Shown one piece after another: positions 3,263 to 36,504 of a stretch of DNA of 64,000 nt. The first letter of the stretch is position 1. Each line of letters starts with the position of its first letter. A program made the position numbers and the translations under genes. The notes under the pieces are model-generated. The model was not told where the DNA came from. It made no database searches and saw only the letters and a list, made by a program, of their open reading frames with translations. The DNA is from an uncultured Pirellula sp. (GTDB lineage: Bacteria > Planctomycetota > Planctomycetia > Pirellulales > Pirellulaceae). Where the stretch lies: NCBI GenBank assembly GCA_903892355.1, contig CAITIE010000091.1:186001-250000 (forward strand). The letters run 5' to 3'.

Positions 3263-4707
3263 TGAGTACAGTTTGGATCATCGACGATGAACCCGCGATC
3301 TGTTGGGCATTGAGAAAAAACCTCGAGGTTGAGAAGCACGATGTGCATGTGTACTCTTCCGCAGAGCCGGCGATTGCAGCGATTGGACGTGGGGGAGATC
3401 CCGATCTAGTGCTCCTCGATGTTCGGCTACCTGGCATGGATGGTTTGAAGGCCCTATCGGCGTTCAAAGAACGCATTCCTCAACTTCCTGTCATCATCAT
3501 GACCGCGTTTGGGGATCTAGAGACTGCGGTCAACGCCGTTCAGGGAAAGGCTTTCGAATACTTGACAAAGCCATTTGATCTCGAGGAAGCCCTGCAAACC
3601 GTTCGACGCGGGTTGTACCAAAGCCAATTGCAGATCGCATCGACATCGGATTCAACCGGGGTAACACGGAGCGGGTTGCTGCTGGGACAATCGCAAGCCA
3701 TGCAGGCGATCTATAAGCAGATTGCGATTGCTGCGAAGACGGATTCGACGGTGTTGATTGAGGGGGAACAAGGGACAGGTAAGAGTTTAGTGGCTGCGAT
3801 GATTCATCGATTTAGCAGTCGGCAAGCGAGTCCTTTTCTTCCCGCATTAACAATGACGGATCGCGACCTGGATTTCGATGCGGAATTGTTTGGAGAACGC
3901 AACAGCGATCGTTCGGTCACACTTACCCGAACAGGACTGCTGGAATTAGCCGCGGGTGGAACGGTACTCATCGAAGAGATCGGTAATCTGGCGCCGGCGA
4001 CCCAAGCGAAGTTATTGCGAGCTTTAGAGACTCGCGAGTATTATGTTGTGGGAAATTCGGAAGCGAAAGCGCTAAGTTGTCGGATGTTGTTTACGACCAC
4101 GTTGGAGTTAGAGCGGCTTATCGATGATAAAGAGATCGATTCTCGATTAGCGTCTCAGTTGGGAGTGCATCGGATACACCTTCCTTCATTGCGCGAGCAT
4201 CGTGAAGATATCCCGGAGATGGTGACGTCGTTTTTGATGGCACATCCCAACATGCGGGGTATTAAAATAACGGACCGTGCAATTCAGGAATTGCAGCAAC
4301 GCGATTGGATGATTGGGAACGTGCGGGAGTTGAAGCAAGCCTTAGAGAAATCGGCTATTGTTGCGACTGGCGGGGTGATCCAGGTAGAGGATCTACCTGA
4401 GGAACGGAATGACTTCGGAATGCGTCAGCATGGCTCGACACGCCAGGGGCAGCTCGAGGAAGCGGTCCGAAGTTGGGTGGCGGAGCGGTTGGCTGCAACT
4501 GCTTCCGAAAAGACTTTGAATCCAAGTGACCTGGGAACCACGGGCATCCTCTATGACGATTGCCTAACAGTGGTAGAGCCACCACTGCTGCGAAGCGTGC
4601 TGGAGTATTACCATGGCAACCGAGTTGCCGCAGCCTCGCATTTGGGTCTTCACCGTTCAACCTTGCGACAAAAGATGAAACGTTACGATATTGATCCGGG
4701 ACCGTAA
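3262..4707 (+). CDS. NtrC-family response regulator without a GAFTGA motif
   Basis: 481 aa. A receiver domain (residues 1-120) carries the phospho-acceptor Asp53 in LLDVRLPGMD. An AAA+ domain follows, with Walker A GEQGTGKS near residue 168 and a Walker B variant VLIEEIG. A Fis-type helix-turn-helix closes the protein (about 448-479). After ELFG (about residue 207), where sigma-54 activators have GAFTGA, this protein reads ERNSDRSVTLTRTG. The loop that contacts sigma-54 is therefore missing. By analogy with TyrR-like regulators it may work with sigma-70 or as a repressor (inference). The start overlaps the kinase stop by one base, so the pair is co-translated. Confidence 0.9.
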   Translation: MSTVWIIDDEPAICWALRKNLEVEKHDVHVYSSAEPAIAAIGRGGDPDLVLLDVRLPGMDGLKALSAFKERIPQLPVIIMTAFGDLETAVNAVQGKAFEYLTKPFDLEEALQTVRRGLYQSQLQIASTSDSTGVTRSGLLLGQSQAMQAIYKQIAIAAKTDSTVLIEGEQGTGKSLVAAMIHRFSSRQASPFLPALTMTDRDLDFDAELFGERNSDRSVTLTRTGLLELAAGGTVLIEEIGNLAPATQAKLLRALETREYYVVGNSEAKALSCRMLFTTTLELERLIDDKEIDSRLASQLGVHRIHLPSLREHREDIPEMVTSFLMAHPNMRGIKITDRAIQELQQRDWMIGNVRELKQALEKSAIVATGGVIQVEDLPEERNDFGMRQHGSTRQGQLEEAVRSWVAERLAATASEKTLNPSDLGTTGILYDDCLTVVEPPLLRSVLEYYHGNRVAAASHLGLHRSTLRQKMKRYDIDPGP

Positions 4708-30034: not shown

Positions 30035-30385
30035 CTACTCCGACCCCTTTTTCTTTGTTTTCGACGGGGTTGATTCGCTCGATTTCGAGGGAGCGGGTTT
30101 GGAGTCTGATTTGCTAGCCGCAGTGTCACTCGATGTCGAGTTGCTACCGGAACTGCTATCGCTCGGGGTTTTATCGGCAGCTGCTGATTTCTTGTAGGAG
30201 TCGCTTCTGTAATCCGTTTGATAGAACCCGGAGCCTTTGAACATGACCGCTGCTCCAGTTCCAATCAGTCGACGCAACTTGAGCTTTTTGCACTTAGGGC
30301 ATTTCTTCTCTGGGTCCGCCGAGATCGATTGAAAGAGCTCGAACGTGTGCCCGCAGGCATCGCATTCGTAGTCGTAGGTTGGCAT
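30035..30385 (-). CDS. FmdB-type zinc ribbon protein
   Basis: 116 aa. A single zinc ribbon occupies the first 55 residues: MPTYDYECDACG, then CPKCKKLKLRRLIG, with two CxxC pairs. The last 50 residues are Ser/Lys-rich and disordered. The family was named for a putative regulator of formamidase genes; the role of most members is unknown. It is the last gene of the grpE/dnaJ cluster here, 43 nt after grpE, which points to a link with protein quality control. Confidence 0.88.
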   Translation of the reverse strand: MPTYDYECDACGHTFELFQSISADPEKKCPKCKKLKLRRLIGTGAAVMFKGSGFYQTDYRSDSYKKSAAADKTPSDSSSGSNSTSSDTAASKSDSKPAPSKSSESTPSKTKKKGSE

Positions 30386-30428: not shown

Positions 30429-31022
30429 TCAAGACGGGGAAGCAGGGCCTTTCGAGACGATGACCATGCTGGGACGAATTACTCGGTCATGCATCATGAA
30501 TCCAAGACTTGTTTCCATCATCACCGTTCCCGCAGGGTACTGATCGCTCGGTTGCTGCGCGATGGCTTGATGGATATTTGGATCAAACGGTTTCCCAAGC
30601 CCCGCGATCGGTTTGCAGTGATGCTTGGCCAGGACATTCGCAAATTGCTGCTGAACCATGCGAACCCCGGCCACGATTCCGTCGGCGTTTGTCGCCCCGG
30701 ATACAGACTCAGTTGCACGATGCAGATTGTCGACGACCTCGAGCAAATCGCTGACCAATGGCAATGCGGCGTACTTTAATTGCGTTTCCACATCGCGGGT
30801 GATGCGACGACGAAAGTTCTCTAGTTCCGCTTGGGCTTTCAGCTCGCGGCTTCGCAACTCGACGACTTGTTGCTCCAGTTCATCGATCAGTTGCTCTGGT
30901 GTTTCCGACGATGGATCGGAAGCGGTGGATTCGTTTTCGGCAAAAACGGCGTCTTTCGGGTCCCTTCCTCGCTCGGAGTCTTGCGAGGATCCATCGGAAT
31001 TTGAATCGTTATTTGAGTTCAT
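30429..31022 (-). CDS. grpE: Nucleotide exchange factor GrpE
   Basis: 197 aa, normal length. It releases ADP from DnaK and acts as a dimer through its long N-terminal coiled coil (about residues 38-80). The GrpE core follows: LLEVVDNLHRA, then PIAGLGKPFDPNIHQAI and the beta domain MMETSLGFMMHDRVIRPSMVIVSKG. The first 40 residues are acidic and disordered. It lies 79 nt downstream of dnaJ. No dnaK is in the window. Confidence 0.96.
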   Translation of the reverse strand: MNSNNDSNSDGSSQDSERGRDPKDAVFAENESTASDPSSETPEQLIDELEQQVVELRSRELKAQAELENFRRRITRDVETQLKYAALPLVSDLLEVVDNLHRATESVSGATNADGIVAGVRMVQQQFANVLAKHHCKPIAGLGKPFDPNIHQAIAQQPSDQYPAGTVMMETSLGFMMHDRVIRPSMVIVSKGPASPS

Positions 31023-31101: not shown

Positions 31102-32235
31102 CTAGGAGGCGGATTGCCCTTGAAAATAAGCCATGATCCGGTCCATGAAACCTTTCCGTTCGGGCGATATATTTTTGTCGTCGAGTTCGGCCAGTTCCCG
31201 CAACAACTCCTGCTGTCGTTTGCTGAGTTTCTTAGGAACTTCGATGAGTGTTTGAACGAGCAGATCCCCCTTGGCTCCCGTATGCGGATCGGGCATTCCT
31301 TGACCCCGCAATCGGAACACGGTACCGCTTTGCGTTCCAGCAGCGATATCGAGGGACTTGCGACCTTCGAGCGTAGGGACCTCGATACTCGAACCCAGGG
31401 CCGCTTGGCTGAAGGCAATCGGCAATTGCAGGATGAGGTCGTGCCCATCCCGTTTGAAGATCGGGTGGGCTTTGACGTGAATAAAGCAATAGGCGTCACC
31501 TCGCGGCCCGCCATCTGGACTCGGTTGTCCCTCGCCCTGCAAGCGAACGCGCATGTCGTCGTCGACCCCAGGGGGAATTTTGACTTCGAGTTTTACCTCG
31601 TGAGGCTTTAGGCCCTGGCCGTCGCATGTCTTGCAAGGGTTGCTGATGGTTTTGCCGCTGCCTCGGCAAATAGGGCAGGTCGTCTGGACCCTGAGTACTC
31701 CTGTCGCTTGCACGACTTGACCTCGGCCTTGGCATCGCCTACAGCTTTCAGGTTGTGAACCTGCTGCCGCACCGGAACCGCTGCATCCATCGCAGGTTGC
31801 GTGACGGGTCAAGGAGACGGTTTTAGTCACCCCTCGTGCAGCTTCTTCAAGATCGAGCGTTACGTCGCAACGAAGATCGGCACCTCGTCGCACTCGAGAA
31901 CGAGACCTTCCGCCCCCAAAAAAGTCTTCGAAGATGGTTCCGCCAAAGACATCTCCAAAAGCTTCGAAGATATCGCCAACGTCGCGGAAGCCACCCGAGG
32001 ACTCTGCCCCCGCATGCCCATAACGATCGTATTTGGCTCGTTTCTGGGGATCGCTAAGGACTTCGTAGGCTTCGGCGGCCTCTTTGAACTTGTTGATCGC
32101 CGCATCATCACCTTGATTGGAATCAGGGTGATACTTTAAAGCGAGCTTGCGGTACGCCTTGGCGATCTCGTCTTGGGAAGCCGATTTCTCGACTCCGAGG
32201 ACTTCGTAAAAATCTCGTTTGGCGTCCGCTGGCAC
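31102..32235 (-). CDS. dnaJ: Chaperone DnaJ
   Basis: 377 aa, canonical type I. J-domain with HPD in KYHPDSNQG (about residues 36-38), a Gly/Phe linker, a zinc domain with all four CxxCxGxG motifs ([32 protein letters not shown]), and the two substrate-binding beta domains. It presents unfolded proteins to DnaK and stimulates its ATPase. The start is a GTG at 32233-32235. An intrinsic terminator ends 38 nt upstream, so dnaJ either has its own promoter in the 32302-32460 spacer or depends on read-through from groEL1. Confidence 0.97.
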
Positions 32236-32272: not shown

Positions 32273-32301
32273 AAAAAAAGGCCACTCGCTAACGAATGAC
32301 C
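32273..32301 (-). terminator. Intrinsic terminator between groEL1 and dnaJ
   Basis: On the minus strand GGTCATTCG pairs with CGAGTGGCC (9 bp with two G-U pairs, loop TTAG), followed by seven T (32279-32273). It separates the chaperonin genes from dnaJ-grpE, fully or as an attenuator. It sits in the leader of dnaJ if transcription starts upstream of it. Confidence 0.8.
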
Positions 32302-32460
32302 CTTGGCATGTTCAGGCTTATTGATCCTATCAAGCTCCAGGTGTGGATAATTCACGTTCATTCGGAGCCAGTAACCGCGAAGACTAGTCAACGACTAGCT
32401 CCGCGGGGCTTGAGTTCAGTGATCTTTCTTTCCACCCCAGTTGGCGTCGGTTCTGAGCGA

Positions 32461-34080
32461 CTAGCGGATCGAACCTTCGACCTTGCGCTTCTTCTTATCG
32501 TCCTTATCGAGGTTCGTGACGAGTGCTTCGGTGGTCAACAAAAGACCTGAGATACTTGCAGCATTCGCCAACGCGGTTCGGACGACTTTCACAGGATCGA
32601 TGATGCCAGCCTTGAGCATGTCAACATACTGACCCTTGTTTGCATCGTAACCGGTCGACAGAGGCTTTTGACGGACCTCATCGGCAACCACGCTACCGTC
32701 GATACCTGCGTTGTCAGCGATTTGACGAAGGGGAGCTTCGAGGGCTCGGAGGATGATCTCTGCGCCTGTTCGTTCATCGCCTGACAAATCGCTTGCGACC
32801 TTCGCCACGGTATCACGGCATCGGAGAAGAGCCACACCACCACCGGGAAGAATACCTTCTTCGACGGCAGCTCGTGTTGCGTGCAAGGCATCTTCGACAC
32901 GAGCCTTCTTTTGCTTCATGTCCGCTTCGGTTTCGGCACCGACGCTGATCACAGCAACACCACCAGCGATCTTCGCGAGTCGTTCTTGGAACTTCTCCTT
33001 GTCGTATTCGCTGTCGGTTTGCTCGAGTTGAGCGCGGATCTGAGCCACGCGTTGATCGATGGACTTACGATCCCCACCACCTTCAACGATGGTGGTGTTG
33101 TTCTTGTCAACAACGACCTTCTTTGCACGTCCAAGGTGTTCCAGAGAAATCTTCTCGAGCTGAACACCGAGATCTTCGCTGATGAACGTACCGCCGGTGA
33201 GGACTGCAATGTCCCCGAGCATTGCCTTGCGACGATCGCCGAAGCCAGGAGCCTTTACCGCACAAACATTCAGCGTGCCGCGGAGCTTGTTCACGACGAG
33301 CAGCGTCAACGCTTCTGCATCGACGTCTTCAGCGACGATCAACAGTGGCTGGCCAGCGGTGCTGACTTTTTCCAAGACCGGGATCAGATCGCGAATGTTG
33401 CTGATCTTCTTGTCGTAAAGAAGAATGAGCGCGTTCTCGAACGTGCAGCTCATGTCCGATGGGGTATTGATGAAGTACGGGGAGATGTATCCCTTGTCGA
33501 ACTGCATCCCATCGACATATTCGACGGTCGTATCTGCTGTTTTACCTTCTTCGACGGTGATCACTCCGTCTTTGCCGACGCGTTCAAGCGACTCGGCCAG
33601 GAGCGAACCGATCGACATGTCGTTGTTGGCGGAGATGGCTCCGACATTGGCGACTTCGTCTCGGTGGCTGACAGGTTTGGCAAGTTCTTGAAGCTTCGCA
33701 ACGGCAGCGTCAACAGCCTTGTCGATTCCTCGACGGATGGCCGACGGATTGCTACCAGCAGCGATGTTTCGCAAGCCTTCCTTGAAAATCGCACGCGCCA
33801 AAACGGTTGCGGTGGTCGTTCCATCACCGGCCAAGTCGCTGGTTTTTTGAGCGACTTCGACAACCAACTTGGCTCCCATGTTCTCGAAACGGTCTTCGAG
33901 TTCGATTTCTTTGGCGACCGTCACGCCGTCTTTGGTGACGGTTGGACCACCAAAGCTTTTGTCGATGATGACGTTGCGACCGGTTGGTCCCATGGTCACG
34001 GCAACAGCATCAGCGAGTTTCTCTACGCCCTGCAGCATCCGCGCACGAGCTTGATCATCAAAAAGAAGTTGCTTAGCCAC
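32461..34080 (-). CDS. groL: Chaperonin GroEL, paralogue 1 (basic tail)
   Basis: 539 aa. The 60-kDa chaperonin that folds proteins in a closed cage with GroES. The ATP site ([12 protein letters not shown]) and the GGGVALLRC equatorial motif are intact, and the apical domain is full length. The C-terminus does not have the usual Gly-Met repeats; it ends with a lysine-rich KDDKKKRK stretch, which should change the cavity floor. It lies 42 nt after groES. The start is a GTG at 34078-34080. It differs widely from the second GroEL encoded on the other side of groES, so this is an old paralogue rather than a recent copy. Confidence 0.97.
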
Positions 34081-34122: not shown

Positions 34123-34419
34123 TTAAGCGAGCTTGGCGAGAACATCGCTCTCGCGAAGGATCTTGTACTCAACGCCGTCGACTTCGACTTCGCTTCCGCC
34201 GTACTTGCCGAAGATCACTTCGTCGCCAACGCTAACGCTGAGAGCGGCGCGAACGCCGTTATCGAGCAACTTGCCCGGTCCAACTGCGACGACCTTTCCA
34301 CGTTGTGGCTTTTCCTTGGCACTGTCTGGCAAAACGATACCACCAGCGGTGGTTTCTTCTGCTTCGAGAGGCTGAACAACGACACGATCATCGAGAGGAC
34401 GGAGATTTACCTTAGCCAT
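34123..34419 (-). CDS. groES: Co-chaperonin GroES
   Basis: 98 aa from the ATG at 34419 (GGGTGA about 6 nt upstream; a frame extension to 34428 is open). Lid of the GroEL cage. The family pattern is complete: [10 protein letters not shown], the mobile loop [23 protein letters not shown] with its GGIVL anchor, and [15 protein letters not shown]. It is the only groES visible and lies between two groEL genes, so one lid may serve both. Confidence 0.97.
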
Positions 34420-34478
34420 TTCAATCACCCTTGTTTCTATGTATTTGAATGTATTCGAAGTTGTTTTTTAGTGCTGAA

Positions 34479-34535: not shown

Positions 34536-36233
<1,698 letters not shown>

Positions 36234-36296
36234 GTTGAACTCCTTGAATGTGATTCAGCCCGATTTGGCAGTCGAACTTTGTGTGGCCCGCTTCCG

Positions 36297-36313
36297 AGCA
36301 ACCCGCGTGCCAA
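36297..36313 (-). promoter_or_regulatory. Full-consensus sigma-54 promoter of the chaperonin operon
   Basis: On the minus strand: T-TGGCACG (36313-36306), CGGG (36305-36302), TTGC-T (36301-36297). This matches YTGGCACG-N4-TTGCW at every position, with exact spacing of the -24 GG and -12 GC. Transcription should begin near 36286, giving a leader of about 53 nt before the groEL2 GTG. No CIRCE element (TTAGCACTC-N9-GAGTGCTAA) is visible. A large inverted repeat lies just upstream (36328-36360). Confidence 0.75.
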
Positions 36314-36327
36314 CGGAATTGTTTTTT

Positions 36328-36368
36328 ACCGCAAGTCTATTTGAGGCAGAGACTTGCGGTGTTTTTTT
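36328..36368 (+). terminator. Inverted repeat with T-tract upstream of the groEL2 promoter
   Basis: ACCGCAAGTCT and AGACTTGCGGT (36328-36338 and 36350-36360), a perfect 11-bp stem with an 11-nt loop, then GTTTTTTT on the plus strand. It has the form of an intrinsic terminator for plus-strand transcription, yet no plus-strand gene ends here. It also lies 15-47 bp upstream of the -24 element of the sigma-54-type promoter, where an activator-binding palindrome could be. Both readings are possible. The rest of the 36369-36504 gap has a small CAGCCC/GGGCTG hairpin and no gene. Confidence 0.6.
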
Positions 36369-36504
36369 CAGCCCCGACAGGGCTGACACCTGCCAAAAAG
36401 AGCGGAGGAAGTCGCGCAGGCGAATCGGGAGACATGGCGGCCGTTAGTGGCTCCCAGAACCATTCGCGCCTCCCAGGAGTAGCCGCTCCACCCGCCACCC
36501 GCGG

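Follow-up and report, generated by a model that had tools for sequence, protein, structure and literature searches.

Introduction

Heat-shock control in bacteria is usually taught as a matter of sigma-32 or of HrcA, HspR and CtsR. One system that depends on sigma-54 is that of HsfA in Myxococcus xanthus. Here a histidine kinase, HsfB, and an NtrC-like response regulator, HsfA, directly regulate the heat-shock gene lonD (PMC9109919). The HrcA/CIRCE system covers groESL and dnaK in many bacteria, including Chlamydia, which belongs to the same superphylum as the planctomycetes (PMC8762339). GrpE and GroES of Bacteroides and Flavobacterium, which belong to a different phylum, are sigma-54-dependent according to work cited in PMC12316311.

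For the planctomycetes themselves, sigma-54 promoters were found enriched at the COGs of GroEL, GroES, GrpE, DnaJ, DnaK, and IbpA in Planctomycetia and less so in Phycisphaerae (PMC12316311, published in 2025); the same paper refers to work from 2004 on the activators of Pirellula strain 1. When the main text of PMC12316311 was searched by term, neither an upstream activator site nor a palindrome nor HrcA came up, and no activator assigned to the chaperones was seen there. In Rhodopirellula baltica, the genes annotated as GroEL (RB8970), Cpn10 (RB8969), Cpn60 (RB8966), DnaJ (RB8972), and GrpE (RB8974) have close locus numbers and were all induced by a shift from 28 to 37 C, and DnaK, Hsp20, and ClpB were likewise heat-induced (PMC2754498). 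No regulation of the rpoN transcript was observed on heating (PMC2754498), which is as expected if control works via an activator.

We followed up a preliminary description of a 64-kb stretch of DNA (the window), in which a sigma-54 promoter had been placed in front of a groEL-groES-groEL operon. Compared to PMC12316311, the promoter was traced orthologue by orthologue, and activator-like sites and a candidate regulator were added. The novelty that the preliminary description implied does not extend to the sigma-54 enrichment at planctomycete chaperones, which had already been published. The activator-like site, the regulon logic, and the candidate regulator appear to be new; our literature search found no report of the palindrome described below, its phasing, a downstream element, a single-site chaperone regulon or a planctomycete chaperone activator. 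We propose, with a probability of roughly 0.55, that groESL, dnaK, clpB, and hsp20 form one sigma-54 regulon in Planctomycetota and some lineages beyond, under a single dedicated two-component activator that recognizes TGYCA-N3-TGRCA and replaces HrcA/CIRCE, and that this site has moved downstream of the start in the window's genus.

A Sigma-54 Promoter Motif Precedes groEL2

The minus strand from 36313 to 36297 was re-read as TTGGCACG-CGGG-TTGCT, which fits the sigma-54 consensus YTGGCACG-N4-TTGCW with its fixed spacing. The motif is thus of full consensus as first described, and it is intergenic and correctly placed in front of groEL2, the GTG start codon of which (36233) was found 63 nt further on rather than 64 nt. 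No second perfect copy of TGGCACG-N4-TTGC occurs in the window; the 23 further places listed deviate by one or two nucleotides each, which is chance level. With a first-order Markov model of the window, 0.049 matches to the 11-base core and 0.0027 to all 13 bases were expected per 64 kb on both strands, and 6e-6 full matches in 300 nt of upstream DNA. Throughout the window's genome the perfect 11-base core was found six times compared to two times for the reversed-pattern control. The core sequence alone is therefore no proof, and the weight comes from position and conservation.

The gene order groEL-groES-groEL was confirmed, with a small correction to the extent of the unit. A strong terminator (32304-32277) after the second groEL sets off dnaJ, grpE, and the zinc ribbon gene, so that the transcript probably ends as groEL2-groES-groEL1 (Table 1).

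Table 1. Positions of genes and sequence elements at the chaperonin locus of the window.
Feature	Position	Strand	Basis or remark
Remaining half of activator-like palindrome, CTTTTTGGCAGG; left half degenerate in the window's genus	36389..36400	minus	70/108 orthologues carry it in full
Perfect inverted repeat, ACCGCAAGTCT-N11-AGACTTGCGGT	36328..36360	minus	Centred 31 bp upstream of -24; half-sites 21 bp apart
Sigma-54 promoter core, -24 TTGGCACG / -12 TTGCT	36297..36313	minus	Motif match; kept in 108/108 orthologues
Predicted transcript start, about 12 nt past the GC of -12	36286	minus	Inferred from sigma-54 -24/-12 geometry
Downstream element, CTGCCAAATCGGGCTG, about +15 to +30 of predicted transcript	36256..36271	minus	Half-site shared with the palindrome found upstream in relatives
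groEL2, first operon gene, 565 aa, GTG start	34536..36233	minus	Cpn60_TCP1 (Pfam)
groES	34123..34428	minus	Cpn10 (Pfam)
Second groEL of operon (groEL1)	32461..34080	minus	Cpn60_TCP1 (Pfam)
Intrinsic-terminator-like hairpin after second groEL	32277..32304	minus	12-pair stem, then T run; folded region -18.8 kcal/mol
dnaJ	31102..32235	minus	Pfam
grpE	30429..31022	minus	Pfam
Small protein, FmdB-like zinc ribbon (Zn_ribbon_8)	30035..30385	minus	Pfam

Conservation of the Promoter among groEL2 Orthologues

The family sampled was the Pirellulaceae, with 149 genomes of 60 genera including Blastopirellula and Rhodopirellula, and a groEL2 orthologue was present in all 149. Upstream DNA was taken for 110 orthologues, two of which were truncated by contig ends. 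The remaining 108 were scored for the best -24/-12 site within 400 nt upstream of groEL2, counted as matches out of the 11 core bases.

The motif was found to be kept upstream of the orthologous groEL genes, the point on which the preliminary description had staked its case. Nine or more of the 11 bases matched in all 108 regions, with 9 matches in 13 regions, 10 in 65, and 11 in 30, compared to shuffle expectations of 9.2, 0.5, and 0.05 for exactly these numbers. Cumulatively, 108 regions were observed against 9.8 in shuffles at nine or more matches, and 95 against 0.6 at ten or more. The GG of the -24 element and the TTGC of the -12 element were invariant. The distance from site to gene ranged from 79 to 394 nt, so the conservation is not passive sequence similarity. 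A chance match in GC-rich intergenic DNA, for which the low ratio of core matches to reversed controls in the genome could be quoted, is refuted by this conservation at variable distance and has a negligible probability. Overall, we consider it likely that the site at 36313-36297 functions as the sigma-54 promoter of groEL2-groES-groEL and belongs to a chaperone regulon.

Presence and Absence of Other Regulators

HrcA was not found in any of the 149 family genomes with a search that was positive in 7 of 14 named control genomes. CIRCE had been noted as not visible, and indeed no match to TTAGCACTC-N9-GAGTGCTAA with three or fewer mismatches was present anywhere in the 64-kb window. On these two grounds HrcA/CIRCE control was rejected; the control proposed here would, unlike that of HrcA/CIRCE, be positive and enhancer-dependent. 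RpoN is encoded once in the window's genome (PF04552, G000:C106:33296-33769, E 3.7e-62) and was found in 290 of 294 genomes of the phylum. The window's genome also encodes nine NtrC-type proteins, of which eight are strong and one is divergent with respect to PF00158. Conservation of the promoter, absence of HrcA, and the presence of RpoN together with bona fide enhancer-binding proteins all support the suggestion that chaperonin production is under sigma-54 control with an ATP-driven activator.

In the window, the DNA ahead of groEL2 showed no pair of sigma-70-type hexamers, and no other upstream feature is as conserved across the 108 genomes as the -24/-12 site. Both observations speak against basal chaperonin transcription from an unrecognized promoter of the sigma-70 family (including sigma-32-like or ECF), with the sigma-54 promoter being auxiliary. 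Such a promoter would agree with chaperonins being essential, for which some constitutive expression is expected, and planctomycete sigma-70 promoters are poorly known. There are tandem promoters at hrcA-grpE of Chlamydia (PMC8762339), and rpoH, rpoE, and rpoN genes are stated to be present in R. baltica (PMC2754498). We regard an auxiliary role of the sigma-54 promoter as possible but on the whole unlikely.

Conserved Elements around the Promoter

Word counts upstream of the 108 aligned promoters exposed a palindrome, CTGYCA-N3-TGRCAG. Of the 108 regions, 70 had an exact TGYCA-N3-TGRCA at a distance of 54-136 bp ahead of the -24 element, compared to 0.0 expected. The palindrome centres cluster at -94/-95 and at -104 to -107 relative to the -24 element, with a few at -84 and at -115 to -118, and they are helically phased (Rayleigh R = 0.70 at 10.5 bp, a statistic that takes related genomes as independent). 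Since the palindrome is phased at distances of 84-118 bp and shifts by whole turns are tolerated, it behaves as the site of an enhancer-binding protein, and we infer that TGYCA-N3-TGRCA is the site of the activator.

The window's genus, with 10 members, has kept the promoter and a downstream CTGCCA, while the upstream palindrome is reduced to its right half, TTTTTGGCAG or TTTTTGACAG. At 80-150 bp upstream, where an activator site was looked for, the window accordingly has a half-site only, against the exact palindrome in 70 of 108 relatives. The strict palindrome-plus-promoter pattern had no match in the window's own genome, and it is therefore the downstream copy that was recognized as the conserved one in this genus. 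Across the family, CTGYCA was found at +39 to +49 from the first T of TGGCAC, just past the predicted start, in 85 of 108 orthologues (0.2 expected); it recurs at +39 to +43, which is about +15 of the predicted transcript. Other sigma-54 promoters of the window's genome have the downstream element as well, namely those of hsp20, a yqgE-like gene, and a second groES-groEL. The hsp20 copy is a perfect palindrome, CTGTCACATTGACAG.

The inverted repeat between palindrome and promoter has 11-bp arms and an 11-bp spacer, which places its half-sites two helical turns apart, and its distance from the -24 element is fixed in several relatives. The AA(-42)/TT(-21) pair of the dyad was found in 45 of 108 orthologues compared to 1.1 at other offsets. 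The repeat (36360-36328) was rejected as an activator site because the fixed -31 centre in relatives is too near the -24 element for a typical enhancer, and as a terminator because it is not followed by a T run on the minus strand.

Elements fixed in this manner could also be taken for operators. The palindrome and its downstream copy would then bind a repressor overlaying the sigma-54 promoter, i.e., a protein unrelated to HrcA with a similar role, and the sigma-54 activator would act elsewhere. CTGYCA does lie just past the predicted start, a common place for repressors to bind, and the inverted repeat at -31 is likewise fixed in place. Only the downstream copy is well preserved in the window's genus. 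However, the upstream palindrome is phased and tolerates whole-turn shifts as enhancer-binding sites do, and sigma-54 promoters require an activator in any case. We find repressor operators improbable and retain the palindrome as a putative activator site.

A YqgE/AlgH-like gene behind a sigma-54 site carried CTGTCA downstream at two loci (L178, which is G000:C106, and L179) and the palindrome upstream at a third (L209). This gene may belong to the same regulon.

A Putative Chaperone Regulon across Genomes

A scan of the 149 family genomes for the palindrome together with the promoter gave matches in 89 genomes, usually one to three per genome, and none with the reversed pattern. We read 31 such places other than groEL2, assigning genes by reading translations. 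Twelve preceded dnaK (usually followed by clpB), 10 hsp20, and four a second groES-groEL, while the remaining five preceded other genes.

A wide scan, restricted to TGCCA-first sites, covered 84,980 species with one genome each and gave at least 118 stretches. Among the listed matches, 111 had enough DNA for assignment by tblastn, and 89 of these precede chaperones: GroEL/GroES in 45 cases, DnaK in 32, Hsp20 in 10, and ClpB in two. Since the pattern made no reference to chaperones, this is an independent test of the regulon. The hosts of the listed chaperone matches included Planctomycetota (Pirellulales, Phycisphaerae, and Kuenenia) as well as genomes with the labels Lentisphaerae, Verrucomicrobia, Poribacteria, and Gemmatimonadota.

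That groEL, dnaK-clpB, hsp20, and a second groES-groEL share one activator-like site strengthens the idea of a signal-gated stress response, which had been suggested from the window alone. As judged from these sequence patterns, a sigma-54 promoter with its own activator-like site, present ahead of almost all the major chaperone genes looked at, probably replaces the usual heat-shock controls in these planctomycetes.

One deep-branching family (L447, L448, and L449) was found to have two tandem palindromes, 41 bp apart, at its groES-groEL sigma-54 promoter. Between this promoter and the chaperonin genes lies a stand-alone receiver-domain gene, assigned by reading translations.

A Candidate Activator

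Activators were gathered from the window's genome, from eleven more genomes of the family, and from seven distant genomes. A tree of 110 activator proteins resolved four clear types. Type A is AAA-Fis without a sensor (PspF-like), type B is another response regulator with a receiver, type C has a GAF sensor, and type D is a two-component regulator of the form receiver-AAA-Fis (copy of the window's genome at G000:C64:117207-118655).

Types A, B, and C each form one supported clade that is found in every Pirellulaceae genome for which the activators were fully fetched, and their Fis-type HTH regions are conserved. The promoter could therefore be real and be served by one of these universal enhancer-binding proteins of the family rather than by type D. 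The distant genomes argue otherwise. No member of the A, B, and C clades was found in two small palindrome-carrying genomes (f58), and type C was found in none of the distant palindrome-positive genomes. Type D forms one clade with a member, at 44-49% identity, in every distant palindrome-positive genome with activators largely recovered (G306 being only partly sampled), and it is the only activator type common to all of those. Furthermore, none of types A, B, and C was found beside a chaperone gene, whereas type D adjoins dnaK in one family. Types A, B, and C were consequently ranked below type D, and it is doubtful that one of them is the activator.

The adjacency to dnaK was observed in one deep-branching family, where nine of ten loci have a histidine kinase gene, the type D gene, and dnaK in a row, and the tenth locus is cut off by a contig edge. 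The palindrome is located between the type D gene and dnaK in seven of these nine loci. By Pfam a HisKA-HATPase kinase, a REC-Sigma54_activat-HTH_8 regulator, and HSP70 follow in succession, which is an arrangement of the HsfBA type. The likeness to HsfBA, a kinase and a REC-AAA-Fis regulator at a heat-shock gene, is one of architecture and presumed working. Unlike the type D system, M. xanthus has a hybrid kinase in HsfB, and its HsfA also controls pilus and secondary-metabolite genes (PMC9109919). Where the type D gene and dnaK are adjacent, no strict -24/-12 site was found between them. Several Pirellulaceae have the kinase and type D genes together ahead of mutL. No activator gene was found beside the chaperone genes at any chaperone match among the 118 listed loci of the wide scan, and the adjacency was thus seen in one family only.

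In 294 genomes of the phylum, 26 of the 28 with a type D score beyond E 1e-212 were palindrome-positive. Scores beyond E 1e-190 were found for 50 of 72 palindrome-positive genomes vs. 70 of 222 negative genomes, all of them related and not independent. Two families with good type D scores (E exponents 205-212) had the strict pattern in none of 29 genomes, and the association of type D with the palindrome is therefore incomplete. Type D was not recovered in G132, a genome that is 86% complete. The sigma-54-contact loop of the Pirellulaceae type D proteins reads GAYTDA, GAFTDA or GAFTHA instead of GAFTGA. We consider type D the best candidate and rather likely to be the activator of the chaperone regulon, judging from its distribution and gene neighbourhood.

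Proposed Mechanism

In the proposed mechanism, RNA polymerase with RpoN would wait in a closed complex at the -24/-12 element. A dedicated NtrC-type enhancer-binding protein would occupy TGYCA-N3-TGRCA, which in most relatives lies about 120-130 bp ahead of the start, and would open the closed complex by hydrolyzing ATP. In the window's genus the upstream site would have decayed to a half-site, leaving the recognizable copy of the motif just past the start. The signal is presumed to be protein-folding stress.

A chaperone regulon needing an ATP-driven activator would follow a different logic, in which a tight off state is expected and the signal enters via kinase and regulator. If true, this would fit the induction of R. 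baltica chaperones on heating without a change in the rpoN transcript. Naming a short DNA site that can be tested, as well as candidates for the regulator and the kinase, makes folding-stress sensing in HrcA-less planctomycetes directly testable.

Other Activator-Like Genes

A divergent NtrC-like protein is encoded in the window itself, at 3679-4176 on the plus strand (L225). It has a receiver, an AAA domain, and a Fis-type HTH in a 508-aa open frame, and its contact loop lacks GAFTGA. It was rejected as the activator on account of this loop and its weak PF00158 score, and it may be an activator-like protein that has lost its contact with sigma-54. In several genomes (L297, L272, L295, and L296) the type A gene was found directly behind a gene of about 750-840 aa.
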